Source: Cryomorphaceae bacterium
Lineage (GTDB): Bacteria > Bacteroidota > Bacteroidia > Flavobacteriales_D > Crocinitomicaceae
NCBI GenBank assembly: GCA_021299335.1
Contig: JAJTGF010000009.1
Span: 1 to 36,814 of the forward strand
DNA length: 36,814 nucleotides
Reading direction: 5' to 3'
Numbering within the stretch: position 1 is the stretch's first letter; the number at the start of each line of letters is the position of its first letter. The position numbers and the translations under genes were made by a program. Shown piece by piece: positions 2,634-35,717 of this stretch. The notes under the pieces were generated by a model, which did no database searches, was not told the DNA's origin, and saw only the letters and a program-made list of their open reading frames with translations.

Positions 2634-3731
2634 AGCAAATACCGAGAACGACGACAACCAGTGATCGATGTCGTAGTTTCCTTTACCGATACTTTCTTGT
2701 GCGTAGTCCCACATGTCATTCATGCTGTTGACCCACGCCTCTTTTGTCGCTGCATCGATGCTTTCTGCAGGTAAACTCTTGAGCATGCCATTTAAACACC
2801 AAATGCGGTTGAGGTGGTAGCCATCCCAGTGAGACTCATAGCCGTCGTGTTTGTCAGTTTTCTTGATCTGTAAGTCTTTGGTAGCTGTTTGGGCTGCAAA
2901 AAGGCCTGGCGCAAATTGTTGTACCCACTTGAGGTAGTCTTCTTGATCATATACTTTTCGCATGAGGTCTGTGACCAGTAACGAAGCAGACATGAAGTCG
3001 TATTCAAATGGCTCCGCGCGCAATGGCGCTTTGGTCATTTTACCAAAATAACGCTTGCTGGCTTTGAGCGCTACTTTGAGTAGGTCTTCGTCGCCAAAAG
3101 TACGCGCGTAGTCGATGGCAAAAGAAAGATTCAAAGATGGTGCGTCATGCGAACCCGATAGCTTCACTTCTTTGATGTCTTTCCAAATCACTTGGGCTGC
3201 AGCAGCACACAGGCGGTGTAGCGGCCCTAAATTTTGTAGCCAACGTTCAGCATCTGGATCATTCCATCGGGCTAATTCATCGGCAACCTTGAGTAACCAA
3301 CCTTGGCCATAAGGGAATTCAAATACATAACGCTCTTTGTTGGTATCAAAGTACTGGTATTCTTTGAGGATATTCTCTTCACTAAAGCTTTCATTGAGTT
3401 TAGCGCGAATAGCTGCCGCTTCGGGAATATCGGGATAGGTTTTGAGGATTTTAACCAAAGCCCAGTGGTTGTGGACGGCGCTGTGCCAGTCATAGCAGCC
3501 ATAAAATGCTGGCCAAATATCGGGAGGTGTTTGGGTATCTCCGGGCTGGCGCAATGCCTGATAGTAGTAGTGCGGAGTTGGTTTGGAAGTACATTCCAAT
3601 GAAAGTTTAGCAAAATAAGAAGCGCCTTCTGCCGAAAGTGTATAACGGCCATCAGGAGTTTTGTCAACCAATTGTGCAAATAGGAGACCAACGCTTAAAA
3701 AAGCACCAAGGAAGGAAGTGAGTTTGATCAT
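2616..3731 (-). CDS. Exported DUF2891 family protein
   Basis: A 371-residue protein with an N-terminal signal peptide (hydrophobic FLGAFLSVGLLFAQ, likely cleavage near residue 20), so it acts outside the cytoplasm. The DUF2891 hallmark AFYGCYDWHSAVHNHW lies at about 75-90, and further aromatic and His-rich blocks occur near 293-310 (SHWDGYHLNRIWCLNG) and at the end (DIDHWLSSF). The helical, Trp/His-rich pattern resembles alpha/alpha-barrel proteins, but no activity is known to me for this family. It follows the membrane protein gene by 21 bases and is probably in its operon. It overlaps cmk convergently over 2616-2633. Confidence 0.85.
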   Translation of the reverse strand: MIKLTSFLGAFLSVGLLFAQLVDKTPDGRYTLSAEGASYFAKLSLECTSKPTPHYYYQALRQPGDTQTPPDIWPAFYGCYDWHSAVHNHWALVKILKTYPDIPEAAAIRAKLNESFSEENILKEYQYFDTNKERYVFEFPYGQGWLLKVADELARWNDPDAERWLQNLGPLHRLCAAAAQVIWKDIKEVKLSGSHDAPSLNLSFAIDYARTFGDEDLLKVALKASKRYFGKMTKAPLRAEPFEYDFMSASLLVTDLMRKVYDQEDYLKWVQQFAPGLFAAQTATKDLQIKKTDKHDGYESHWDGYHLNRIWCLNGMLKSLPAESIDAATKEAWVNSMNDMWDYAQESIGKGNYDIDHWLSSFSVFALIGYE

Positions 3732-5202: not shown

Positions 5203-6072
5203 TTAGTCGGCTTCGGGTTCTTCTTCAAAAAGCGGAATTTGGTCGGGGTTTTCATCCTCTTTTTTGGAGAGGTCCCACTCCATGCTAGCTGGCTCAGCTT
5301 CTTCCTCAGCAGATTGATCTACGAGTTCAGGTTCTTCTTGTTGTGGCCAAGGCTCTGGGCTTTCATCTATGGGGTGAGTCAAGACGATTTCCTTCACTTT
5401 CATTTTGGTCATTTGATTGCCTTGCGCTTTCATGCCCTTCACTTCGATGAGATCGGCGAGATTGAGCACTTGATCGGGTAAATTCTTCGTTTCTTTGAGC
5501 AGTTTGTTAAAGATGATTCTGGCCTCTGGGCGGTAAGCCGTAGAAACGACATCGAGGTAAGAGCCTGGCGCTTCAGAAATATAGCTCACGCGTTTGTCTT
5601 GTGTGACCTCACAAGTAAAGCGTTTGACGTAGTGCAATTCTTTTTCTGCGTCGTAGTAAACGGCAGAAATAGGACGGTCTTGGATCCACTTTTCGATGTG
5701 GATCATGTCTTCGTCGAAATGCGTAGCTAAATCAAAACTACTCAGTCGGTACTCGCCGTTTTTGTAAAGCGTTAGGATGCGGTCTTCGCCTTTGAAGGAG
5801 CCCAAGAACTTGCCACGACCTTCGTCGTTGAGACGCCCCACGACGGTGTCATACCAAATTTTGCGCGCGGCGAGTGTAGAGCCCCCTACCTCCTTTTGGA
5901 CAATTTTTTGAATGATTTCTTTGGTGACCCGATTGCCTGCAGAATTGCGTCCTTTGATGAGCAAAGCACCTAAGTCGATGTCGAAACGCAAGCGCTTGAG
6001 GTGCGGACGCGGACGCAAAAGCACACTCACGACTTCGCGCTCGCCATTCGGATGCACACTGAAATACAGCAT
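5203..6072 (-). CDS. parC: Topoisomerase IV subunit A, C-terminal fragment cut off by an in-frame stop
   Basis: This 289-residue frame starts at ATG 6072 but is the direct in-frame continuation of the upstream parC reading frame: only TAA (6082-6084) and GGT TCC AAA separate them. It contains the remaining blades of the C-terminal beta-pinwheel that wraps DNA, rich in short strands such as FLGSFKGEDRILTLYKNGEYRL, followed by an acidic tail (EEPELVDQSAEEEAEPASMEW) ending at 5203. With the stop read through, the protein would be 897 residues, a normal length for Bacteroidota subunit A. Reinitiation at ATG 6072, 9 bases after the stop, is conceivable, but the pinwheel would be split in the middle. 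I regard it as part of one interrupted gene, or of an intact gene with a base-call error. Confidence 0.85.
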   Translation of the reverse strand: MLYFSVHPNGEREVVSVLLRPRPHLKRLRFDIDLGALLIKGRNSAGNRVTKEIIQKIVQKEVGGSTLAARKIWYDTVVGRLNDEGRGKFLGSFKGEDRILTLYKNGEYRLSSFDLATHFDEDMIHIEKWIQDRPISAVYYDAEKELHYVKRFTCEVTQDKRVSYISEAPGSYLDVVSTAYRPEARIIFNKLLKETKNLPDQVLNLADLIEVKGMKAQGNQMTKMKVKEIVLTHPIDESPEPWPQQEEPELVDQSAEEEAEPASMEWDLSKKEDENPDQIPLFEEEPEAD

Positions 6073-6075
6073 TTT

Positions 6076-6090
6076 GGAACCTTAGGTTCC
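6076..6090 (-). other. In-frame TAA in parC held in the loop of a perfect hairpin
   Basis: On the minus strand GGAACC and GGTTCC form perfect 6-bp arms with the three bases TAA as the loop. TAA is in frame with parC on both sides. One base change (for example AAA to TAA) would restore a lysine codon, which fits a KGTKGSK-like sequence; the expected residue is from family memory. Confidence 0.85.
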
Positions 6091-7896
6091 TTTGGTGAGG
6101 TCATATTCGGTATCGCGGGTGATGGAATTGACGTAAAAACGCTTCATCATGGTAGGGCCGCCCGCACCGTCTTGATAGAAAAGGTGATAGATGGTACGCG
6201 TATCGCCTTTTTTCCAGACATTGGCATAAATAAGGCCTTTGCCAATGAATTTCTTGTCGGCAACTTTGGTAATCATGAGTTTACCAGAAGAGAAAAAGCA
6301 AATGATGTCGTCAATTTCAGAACAATCGCAAACAGGCTCGTTCTTTTTGAGACCGTAGCCGATAAAGCCTTCTTCGTAATCCACGTATAGTTTGCGATTG
6401 GCAATGATGACTTTGGTAGCAGAAATGGTATCAAAAGTTTTGATTTCGGTCTTGCGCTCGCGACCTACACCAAAGCGTTTTTTGAGGTCTTTGAAGTAAT
6501 CGATGGCGTATTCAACCAAATTGGCCAAATGATGCTTCACCTGCTGCATCTCCTCTTCTATCTTGAGCAAAGCTTCGTCGGCTTTATCGGCATCGAAGCG
6601 CGTGATGCGGATCATGGGGATCTGCGTGAGCTTGTGTAAATCCTCGTCTTGGATTTCGCGGAGCAATTGCTTTTTAAATGGCTTGAAACGATCATAGAGG
6701 TAAGCATAGAGCGCTTCGCGATCGCTGTAATGCTTGAAATCGATGTACATTTCGTGGTTAATGAAGAGCTTTTCTAGAGTCGAGAAATGCCATTGGCGTT
6801 CGAGTTCGTCTAGCTTGATTTCTAGTTCGAGTTTGAGCAGCGCAACGGTGTGGTCGGTATTGACTCTTAGGATTTCACTCACGCCCATGAAACGCGGACG
6901 CTCGCCGTCGATGATCGAGGAGTTCGGAGAAACCGAAACTTCGCAATCGGTGAATGCATATAGCGCGTCGATGGTTTTGTCTGGAGAAACACCTGGGGCC
7001 AAATGCACGATAATTTCTGCTTCTGAGGAGGTGTTGTCTTCGATTTTTTTGATCTTGATCTTGGCTTTATCGTTGGCTTTGATCACGGATTCAATTAAAG
7101 AAGTGGTGGTAGTTCCGAAGGGTATTTCGTTGATGATCAGGGTTTTGTTATCAACCTTTCTGATTTTGGCGCGAATGCGCACCCGACCACCGCGCAAGCC
7201 ATCGTTGTAACCCGAGAAATCGGCCATTCCACCGTTTGGAAAGTCTGGTAAAATCTCGACCTTTTTGCCGCGCAAGTGATTGATCGACTGATCGATGAGC
7301 TCAATAAAGTTGTGGGGTAAAAATTTACAGGCCATCCCGACCGCGATCCCTTCTGCTCCTTGAGCGAGCAACAAAGGAAATTTCATGGGCAGTTGCTGCG
7401 GCTCTTTGTTGCGGCCGTCATAGGAAGACAACCAGTTGGTGGTTTTAGGGTTGAATGCGACATGCAAGGCAAATTTGGAAAGACGCGCCTCGATGTAGCG
7501 CGGTGCTGCTGCGCCGTCGCCGGTGAGGGTATTGCCCCAGTTTCCTTGGCAATCGATGAGTAAGTCTTTTTGACCAATTTGCACTAAGGCATCGCCAATG
7601 GAGGCGTCGCCATGCGGGTGGTATTTCATGGTGTTGCCAATGATGTTGGCGACTTTGTTGTAGCGGCCGTCTTCCATTTCGCGCATGGAGTGCAAAATGC
7701 GGCGTTGTACAGGTTTGAGGCCATCGTACAAACTCGGGACAGCGCGCTCCAAGATGACATAACTGGCATAATCCAAAAACCAGTTTTGGTAGAGGCCGTT
7801 GAGTGGTACGATTTTGTCGTCCACGTGCTGCTTTTCAAATGGATTATGCCCGCTTTCTTCTTGTGGCATTTGGTCTTCGATTTCGTCTTCTGCCAT
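6082..7896 (-). CDS. parC: Topoisomerase IV subunit A, N-terminal part ending at an in-frame stop
   Basis: This 604-residue frame holds the DNA breakage-reunion core of the type II topoisomerase that unlinks chromosomes. It begins with the helix-turn-helix region (LYDGLKPVQRRILHSM), then KYHPHGDASIGDAL near 91-104, the active-site Tyr Y134 in APRYIEARL, a coiled-coil arm, and the first blades of the C-terminal pinwheel (TISATKVIIANRKLYVDYEE). It ends at TAA 6082-6084, inside the pinwheel. At the position of the GyrA Ser83 quinolone hot spot the residue is Ala (A98), while the Asp87 equivalent is kept (D102). The start is one base after the parE stop, so the two subunits form one operon. The catalytic core is complete, but a truncated pinwheel should weaken function. 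Confidence 0.92.
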   Translation of the reverse strand: MAEDEIEDQMPQEESGHNPFEKQHVDDKIVPLNGLYQNWFLDYASYVILERAVPSLYDGLKPVQRRILHSMREMEDGRYNKVANIIGNTMKYHPHGDASIGDALVQIGQKDLLIDCQGNWGNTLTGDGAAAPRYIEARLSKFALHVAFNPKTTNWLSSYDGRNKEPQQLPMKFPLLLAQGAEGIAVGMACKFLPHNFIELIDQSINHLRGKKVEILPDFPNGGMADFSGYNDGLRGGRVRIRAKIRKVDNKTLIINEIPFGTTTTSLIESVIKANDKAKIKIKKIEDNTSSEAEIIVHLAPGVSPDKTIDALYAFTDCEVSVSPNSSIIDGERPRFMGVSEILRVNTDHTVALLKLELEIKLDELERQWHFSTLEKLFINHEMYIDFKHYSDREALYAYLYDRFKPFKKQLLREIQDEDLHKLTQIPMIRITRFDADKADEALLKIEEEMQQVKHHLANLVEYAIDYFKDLKKRFGVGRERKTEIKTFDTISATKVIIANRKLYVDYEEGFIGYGLKKNEPVCDCSEIDDIICFFSSGKLMITKVADKKFIGKGLIYANVWKKGDTRTIYHLFYQDGAGGPTMMKRFYVNSITRDTEYDLTKGT

Positions 7897-7897
7897 A

Positions 7898-9790
7898 TTA
7901 AGATGCTAATTCGGTAGTCTCGGCTTCTTCTGGGGTGTCTGCCGATGGGGTTTCGGGAAGGTCTTTTTCGACGCGCAAGTTATCGATGATGAAATCTTGA
8001 CGCTCTGGGGTATTTTTCCCCATGAAATAAGATAAAATGGAGTCTATAGAGGCATCTTTGGTGAGGATAACAGGTTCCAAACGGATGTCTTCACCAATAA
8101 AATGAACGAATTCGTCTGGAGAGATTTCACCAAGACCCTTAAAGCGTGTGATTTCAGGATTTTTGCCGAGCTCGGCCATGGCGGCACGGCGCTCCTCCTC
8201 GGAGTAACAGTAAATGGTTTTCTTTTTGTTGCGGACCCTGAAAAGTGGCGTTTGCAATACATAGACATGGTTGCGCTTCACGAGATCGGGAAAAAACTGC
8301 AAGAAAAACGTCAATAGGAGCATGCGAATGTGCATGCCGTCGACGTCGGCATCGGTAGCGATGACAATGCGGTTGTAGCGCAGGTTGTCCATGTCTTCTT
8401 CGATGTCGAGGGCGGCTTGGATCAGGTTGAATTCTTCGTTTTCGTAGACCACTTTTTTTGTGAGGCCGTAACAATTGAGCGGCTTACCGCGCAAAGAGAA
8501 AACCGCCTGCGTGTTGACGTCTCTGGACTTCGTGATCGAGCCACTCGCAGAATCACCCTCCGTAATAAAAAGCGTGGTGTCTTCGCGGCGTTCGTCTTTT
8601 AAATCGGTGAGATGCGTTCTGCAATCGCGCAGCTTTTTATTGTGCAAACTTGCTTTTTTGGAGCGGTCACGGGCCAATTTACGGATGCCTGCGAGGTCTT
8701 TGCGCTCTCGCTCGGATTGCTTGATTTTTTTCTCGATGGTTTCTGCCACATCTGGATTGCGATGGAGGTAGTTATCGAGTTTATCTTTGAGAAAATCGTT
8801 GACAAAGGCGCGCATCGATTTGCCACCGGGCTCAATTTCTTGAGAGCCTAACTTGGTTTTCGTCTGAGACTCAAAAACGGGCTCGATGACCTTTACGGCA
8901 ATTGCGGCCACAATAGACTGACGGATGTCAGAGGCTTCGTAGTTTTTATTGTAGAAATCCCGGATAACCTTCGCTACCGACTCTCTAAATGCGCTTTGGT
9001 GCGTACCACCTTGTGTGGTGTGCTGGCCATTGACAAAGGAGTAGTAGTCTTCGCCGTAGGTACGGCCATGAGTGAAAGCTACTTCGATGTCGTCGTCTTC
9101 GAGGTGAATAATGGGATACAGCGGATCGCCATCCATGTTGTTCTCGAGCAAATCTTTGAGACCATCTTTGGAATTGAACTTTTCGCCGTTGTAATAGATA
9201 GATAAACCGCGGTTGAGGTAGCAATAGTTCCACATCATTTTGTCGAGGTAAGCCGTTTTAAAGGCATACTTCTTGAAGATGGTGTCGTCTGGAATAAATT
9301 CTACGTAAGTACCGTTTGTTTCGTCGGTTTTTTCAATGGGGAGTTCTGAAACGAGCTCACCGCGCTCGAAGATTGCGGTTTTCTTTTCGCCATCGCGCAC
9401 GGCGTAGACCATAAAGTATGATGACAGCGCGTTTACAGCCTTTGTACCCACCCCATTCAAACCAACAGACTTCTTGAAGGCTTTGGAGTCGTACTTTCCG
9501 CCGGTGTTCATTTTGGAGACCACCTCAACGACCTTTCCAAGCGGAATTCCTCGGCCGTAGTCGCGGACAGAAACCTTGCCATCTTTGACTTTGATATCGA
9601 CACGCTTTCCGTTGCCCATGACGAATTCGTCAATACAGTTGTCCACAACTTCTTTAACTAAGATGTAAATACCGTCGTCGGCAGCGGCACCATCGCCAAG
9701 CTTGCCAATGTACATCCCGGGGCGCAAACGAATGTGTTCTTTCCAGTCTAGGGAACGTATGTTGTCTTCGGTATATTGATTTTCAGCCAT
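7898..9790 (-). CDS. parE: Topoisomerase IV subunit B (ATPase)
   Basis: The 630-residue protein powers strand passage by ATP hydrolysis and pairs with ParC. The GHKL ATPase motifs are [12 protein letters not shown] near 22-33, [11 protein letters not shown] near 46-56 (Mg-binding Asn), DYGRGIPLG and [13 protein letters not shown]. The TOPRIM domain has [12 protein letters not shown] and [18 protein letters not shown], with the metal-binding acidic residues. The tail is rich in Glu and Thr. A gyrB paralogue cannot be excluded from the B subunit alone, but a single adjacent parE-parC pair in this form is usual for topoisomerase IV of Bacteroidota. A -7 box lies 25 bases upstream, in the spacer shared with divergent efp. 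Confidence 0.93.
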
Positions 9791-34979: not shown

Positions 34980-35717
34980 ATGGAACAGGTTCAGCCTTAT
35001 ATCCCACAACATAAAATTCGCATTGTAACAGCAGCAGCGCTCTTCGATGGCCACGACGCCGCCATCAATATCATGCGCCGCATCATCCAAGCCACCGGCT
35101 GTGAGGTGATTCACCTTGGTCATGACCGCTCTGTTGAAGAGGTAGTGAACTGTGCCATTCAAGAAGATGCTCAGGCCATTGCCATGACCTCCTACCAAGG
35201 CGGCCACATGGAATACTTCAAATACATGCACGATTTACTCCAAGAAAAAGGAGCTCCTCAAATCAAAATATTTGGCGGCGGTGGCGGCACTATCTTGCCT
35301 TCAGAAATTGAAGAACTACAAGCCTACGGTATCACACGTATCTACCACCCAGACGACGGCCGTTCTATGGGCCTTCAAGGCATGATCAACGACCTGATTC
35401 AAAAATGTGATTTTGCGGTGGGGCAAGCCAAAAAAGAGTCTAGCGAAAGTATCTTGGCGGCCGTAGCGCAAAAATCCATTCCAACCTTAGCACACTGCAT
35501 CAGCGCTGCGGAGAACTTTCCAGAAGAAAACTCTGAATTATTGAACGCCTTGCGCGCAGCGGGTGCACAAACAGCTGTTCCGGTATTAGGTATCACCGGT
35601 ACGGGCGGAGCGGGTAAGTCTTCTTTGGTAGACGAGCTCGTGCGCCGTTTCTTGCTCGACTTCCCAGAAAAGCAATGCTCGACTTCCCAGAAAAGCAACT
35701 CGCGGTGGTTTCAGTAG
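34980..35717 (+). CDS. icmF: IcmF fused acyl-CoA mutase, N-terminal part ending at a frameshift
   Basis: IcmF proteins fuse an adenosylcobalamin-binding domain, a MeaB-like GTPase chaperone and the mutase barrel that rearranges isobutyryl-CoA or related acyl-CoAs. This 245-residue part has the B12 domain ([20 protein letters not shown] near 13-32, with the lower-ligand DxHxxx motif, and [16 protein letters not shown] near 98-113) and the start of the GTPase (P-loop [13 protein letters not shown] near 204-216). After FLLDFPEKQ a 23-bp tandem duplication shifts the frame, adds [13 protein letters not shown] and stops at 35717. Removing one copy restores the frame into the next part. A promoter-like box lies 20 bases upstream. 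Confidence 0.88.
35653..35698 (+). repeat. Perfect 23-bp tandem duplication that shifts the icmF frame
   Basis: Bases 35653-35675 and 35676-35698 are identical; each copy begins TGCTCGACTTCC and ends AAAGCAA. Since 23 is not a multiple of three, the icmF frame is lost. Deleting one copy gives an uninterrupted frame [21 protein letters not shown]. The junction also makes a new ATG (35675-35677) in the downstream frame. Confidence 0.97.

Follow-up and report, generated by a model that had tools for sequence, protein, structure and literature searches.

A private in-frame TAA at a small palindrome in a parC-type gene, most likely a consensus error or a fleeting mutation

Results

A parC-type gene cut after its catalytic core

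The window, by which we mean the whole stretch of DNA analysed, corresponds to the entire contig C82 (36.8 kb) of the genome assembly G000. This assembly is fragmented, with 107 contigs adding up to 1.8 Mb and a completeness of 81.6%, and presumably represents a metagenome-assembled genome. On its minus strand lies a gene whose profile match is PRK12758 (NF009397), DNA gyrase/topoisomerase IV subunit A, and which is interrupted by an in-frame stop (Table 1). The coordinates, the common frame and the lengths of the two parts given in the original prediction (604 codons, a TAA at 6082-6084, then an ORF of 289 amino acids) were all recovered. After the TAA come the codons GGT TCC AAA and then the ATG at 6070-6072 (minus strand); the same-frame opening comprises 292 codons, or 289 when counted from this ATG. 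Both pieces fit a single PRK12758 profile without overlap, at positions 6-595 and 597-856 of 870, and the split falls at profile position 596. The first part alone scores 1033 bits, above the curated cut-off of 780, and the second, covering the profile from 597 to 856, scores 261 bits.

Table 1. Features at the interrupted parC-type gene (window coordinates)
Feature	Position	Strand	Remarks
parC-type gene, first part	6082..7896	-	604 codons and TAA; full catalytic core and start of C-terminal domain
In-frame TAA, codon 605 of the parC-type gene	6082..6084	-	
15-bp palindrome	6076..6090	.	7-bp perfect arms GGAACCT/AGGTTCC around one base
parC second part, ORF from ATG	5203..6072	-	289 aa; remaining C-terminal domain and acidic tail
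Partner gene just upstream, parE/gyrB-like ATPase subunit	7898..9790	-	intact, 630 aa; context only

The Pfam DNA_topoisoIV match, at residues 51-464, places the catalytic core in the 604-residue part, and the stop lies after the core. The gyrase and topoisomerase IV cores in the PDB match a relative up to about residue 486. The part after the stop (5206-6081, minus strand) gave no Pfam match at E 0.1. The model of a full-length homologue was poor (mean pLDDT 44.4) and that of a relative's C-terminal domain was weak (52.5), with the site placed between two strands within the domain. When this weak model was used in a fold search, the 18 best matches were all to gyrase, ParC or type IIA topoisomerase, mostly to their C-terminal domains, and six matches had E values of at most 0.001; given the low query TM-scores (0.16-0.26) and the high rmsd (15-19), only the strand order is supported by this search. 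The proposed location of the stop inside the C-terminal domain agrees with its position past the core and with these matches.

A second parC, for which the original prediction had proposed a search, was looked for, and the contigs of the incomplete G000 assembly contained one copy only, with no rescuing one. Likewise, gyrA proper (TIGR01063 above cut-off) was not found among the G000 contigs. This cut-off was passed in 23 of the 26 genus genomes searched, G000 being one of the 26, and the missing gyrA is probably due to assembly incompleteness.

The stop is private to one genome

We compared the site codon over 110 rows, made up of 30 loci from genus genomes (G000 included) and 80 loci from a genome collection, with many contigs common to both sets. 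The codon was AAA in 102 rows, AAG in 6, AAT in 1 and TAA in 1, the last being G000. The lysine that had been expected in relatives is thus encoded in 108 of the 110, and it is invariant in an alignment of 40 orthologues, which does not include the one asparagine row. That row (L063, CAMAPI010000005.1; codon AAT) is the sole relative without lysine among the 110. Across the order, 399 genomes were surveyed and 363 gave a match; among the 150 matches listed G000 alone carried an internal stop. A split common to relatives was not seen in the 110 rows or the 150 listed matches, and no copy of the stop or palindrome site was present in viral contigs. The nearest genome by identity, G022, is only 89% identical over the parC-type gene, so a strain of the same species was not available for comparison. 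The methionine of ATG 6072 is an ordinary codon in the unbroken gene of the relatives, where it is mostly Met, otherwise Leu and once Val.

Internal stops were reported in the matches of some relatives. At the plus-strand loci L017, L020, L021 and L031 these were TAG codons that mark the gene end; they were also reported for minus-strand relative loci and, as TGA, in G052. Separately, the parC homologue of G017 shifts frame near its C-terminal end (L152, G017:C1:228500-235500, at about 3075-3280; tblastn pieces in frames -3 and -1), which is either a tail indel or an assembly error.

The other genes compared are open, and the domain codons past the stop lack private replacements

Each window ORF was compared with its counterparts in one to five of the genomes G022, G034, G020, G011 and G053. 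For 31 of the 32 ORFs this was possible, and an internal stop was present in parC only, the other 30 being open. The exception, the ORF at 34980-35717, had no counterpart row; the first ORF of the window is cut by the contig end. Stops that appeared in some other comparison rows were due to opposite-strand ORFs and to relatives with longer starts.

The changes private to G000 were then counted along the gene. Before the stop there were 35 synonymous and 5 replacement changes, in the 225 domain codons after it 16 synonymous and no replacement changes, and in the acidic tail 9 synonymous and 2 replacement changes. Neutral evolution of those 225 codons along the entire branch would be expected to produce about 53 replacements. 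If the second part were free to drift, the absence of private replacements would confine the stop to the last ~6% of the G000 branch. This leaves three readings: the stop is spurious, it arose very recently, or it does not impair what the second part does.

The first base of the TAA completes a palindrome

The original prediction placed the TAA as the loop of a perfect hairpin. This holds for the RNA, for which a 6-bp stem with a 3-base loop is predicted, whereas in the DNA the perfect arms are 7 bp long and the first base of the TAA, rather than lying in a loop, sits in an arm, pairs across the palindrome centre and completes the palindrome. The longest perfect arm through the site base (loop of at most 3) is 2 with the letter of the relatives and 7 with the new one. 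The predicted fold of a 61-nt RNA stretch, which also contains a second stem, has an energy of -12.5 kcal/mol (z -1.57); of 200 shuffled sequences, 12 gave a fold that was equally stable or more so. The pattern GGAACCNAAGGTTCCAARATG, with any base allowed at the site, was found in only one of 240 family genomes, namely G000 itself.

Such palindromes are not rare in themselves. The window contains 5 with arms of at least 7 and a centre of 1, where random sequence would give about 3.0; for arms of at least 6 and a loop of 3 the count is 4, compared with 8.1 at random. What is unusual is that a nonsense base completes one. Among the 3967 one-step nonsense changes possible in 30 window ORFs, 13 (0.3%) reach an arm of at least 7 with a loop of at most 3, a figure that serves as a guide and not as a probability, the test having been devised after the site was seen. 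That a nonsense base completes the palindrome in this way suggests that it was copied from a template and did not arise by a random slip.

A second codon of the same arm is relevant here. The tips of a 15-row tree differ at this glycine codon, with GGA in G000, GGT in G022, and GGC (11) or GGA (2) in the other 13; a single copying event from the opposite arm could account for both the GGA and the TAA of G000. In this tree G000, G022 and a nine-row clade leave one fork in no resolved order, and G022 is not proven to be the sister. The G022 sequence at the site is GGT ACC AAA GGT TCT, and a parent sequence was not among the genomes compared.

No clear general excess of palindrome completion was seen among the 1974 private differences in the window. 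Arms of at least 6 were reached by 26 of them (1.3%), compared with 1.6% when either of the two remaining letters was placed at these sites, and arms of at least 7 by 12 (0.6%), nominally more than the 0.4% for the other letters.

Discussion

A consensus error or a fleeting mutation

Most likely, the parC-type gene of G000 carries a private stop at a palindrome that is either a consensus error or a fleeting mutation, and it is probably not a new kind of gene. The two leading options of the original prediction, a base-call error and a recent nonsense mutation, are therefore kept. Between them we lean towards a consensus error, of the palindrome-templated copying kind or of another. ParC is essential in the bacteria studied, the gene is otherwise clean and the lysine invariant, all of which favours an error, as does the private nature of the TAA (1 of 110 rows, and the only stop among the 150 matches listed). 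The same reading is favoured by the rarity of palindrome completion (13/3967) together with the pattern seen in 1/240 family genomes, by the GGA in the same arm, which also fits copying from the opposite arm, by the 16 synonymous and 0 replacement changes after the stop against the ~53 replacements expected, and by parC being alone with an internal stop among the 31 window ORFs compared.

If so, the copying error would have occurred in vitro, during library preparation or sequencing of the small inverted repeat; one arm would have been copied from the other, with T replacing the first base of the lysine codon, and the gene in the cell would be an ordinary unbroken parC. Both the in-vitro origin of the event and the templating of one arm by the other are inferred. 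The accessible text of PMC6941819 describes false variants in enzymatic-fragmentation libraries, recognisable by their palindromic context and by substitutions of several nucleotides, and that of PMC10908179 gives such library calls a low allele frequency; artefacts of this kind should therefore rarely win the consensus unless depth is low. Also against an error, the window shows no clear palindrome excess, so the library would be one without a strong general artefact signature.

In the sequence alone, a real template-switch mutation would look identical to the in-vitro error. The TAA could be a real and very recent nonsense mutation that arose in the cell by quasipalindrome template switching, in the strain or in part of the population; we consider this possible although unlikely. 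As the accessible parts of the two reports describe it, such switching brings imperfect inverted repeats closer to perfection in E. coli (PMC7202029), and in yeast it is a source of multi-base changes within coding sequence (PMC8604942). The completion of the palindrome, the 1/240 pattern and the GGA apply equally to a mutation in the cell, and the lack of a clear general palindrome signature in the window speaks for it. Just as tentatively, the cell would then retain a 604-residue A subunit with the full catalytic core and a cut C-terminal domain, and this truncated part, with its whole core, does score above the cut-off of the shorter family PRK09631 (655.5 vs 644 bits). Against a true loss stand the invariance of the lysine in 40 orthologues, the essentiality of ParC, and the lack of private replacements in the 225 codons, which sets the age below ~6% of the branch if these were free to drift. 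Neither is a second parC copy present among the contigs, and gyrA proper is absent too, though relatives carry it.

Two chains, readthrough or another code

Translation might instead end at the TAA and begin again nine bases later at ATG 6072, with the core and C-terminal chains assembling into a two-piece A subunit, which we judge very unlikely. In a scan for same-frame stops over 290,679 bases, with lowered thresholds, we obtained 10 rows: parC itself, six other same-frame junctions at which a TAA is followed by an ATG 2 to 8 codons on, and three TAG rows. The TAG rows are frames unlikely to be genes (6388 and 8315 of the window, opposite parC and parE, and L191 at 2690). The six junctions would make a restart at ATG 6072 geometrically ordinary for G000 and, as judged from the sequence, possible, the restart itself being putative; each of the four that were checked with Pfam joins different genes. 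In the accessible part of a study on Flavobacterium johnsoniae (PMC6847099), initiation is helped by an A at -3 and reduced by structure close to the start. ATG 6072 has the favourable A at -3, but the stem of the palindrome ends just before this ATG. The purifying selection on the part after the stop would also suit two chains, although the split is found in none of the relatives examined, the methionine is an ordinary codon in them rather than a newly evolved start, and the break falls within a domain, between strands predicted by a weak model. Still harder to credit is the specific case of a freshly split topoisomerase IV A subunit working as two chains, in which a templated TAA nine bases before an internal ATG would yield the core and a separate C-terminal DNA-binding chain. 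No split or truncated ParC of a comparable kind was found in a literature search that included the accessible part of PMC4643928.

Readthrough of the TAA, which would give some full-length protein with the stop acting as a damper, is as improbable as that split. In-frame stops that purifying selection conserves have been reported as widespread among bacteria, where they are interpreted as readthrough (PMC7918605, accessible part), and the conservation of the part after the parC stop is in line with it; yet none of the relatives examined has the stop, and the 24 tRNAs found in this incomplete assembly included none that reads TAA (ARAGORN was run on 20 of the loci, whose stretches also contain the other four positions). 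Reassignment of the stop codon or a suppressor tRNA, already held unlikely in the original prediction, was rejected on the same lack of a matching tRNA, as far as the incomplete assembly allows, and because TAA closes 90 of the 128 stop-terminated open frames of at least 300 codons in the 290,679 bases sampled.

Implications and comparison with known systems

If the TAA is an error, an essential gene can come out broken in an assembled consensus because of a small palindrome, a point of importance when pseudogenes and split genes are called. If it is real, an essential enzyme has acquired a nonsense mutation whose mechanism can be recognised, and the case would test directly whether, in this topoisomerase family, the core needs its C-terminal domain attached. 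Were the two-chain reading true, the locus would show the gene of an essential enzyme caught in the act of fission.

With the library artefacts of PMC6941819, as far as its accessible text describes them, the site shares the palindromic context and a possible multi-base change copied between arms; it differs in that the window, as read from the G000 consensus, has no clear excess of such sites. As in the quasipalindrome template-switch mutations of PMC7202029 (accessible part), the change perfects an inverted repeat, here in a single case that is read from the DNA letters. Among protein families, PRK12758 is one uninterrupted chain, whereas the window parC has in its consensus a TAA at codon 605 that is absent from the relatives examined. 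The shorter ParC-type families offer another comparison: the 604-residue part exceeds the cut-off of PRK09631 (profile length 635) by the scores given above and falls below that of PRK09630 (profile length 479). With complete ORFs of 888-918 amino acids in the relatives listed, the window gene is, in contrast to these two families, a cut long form.
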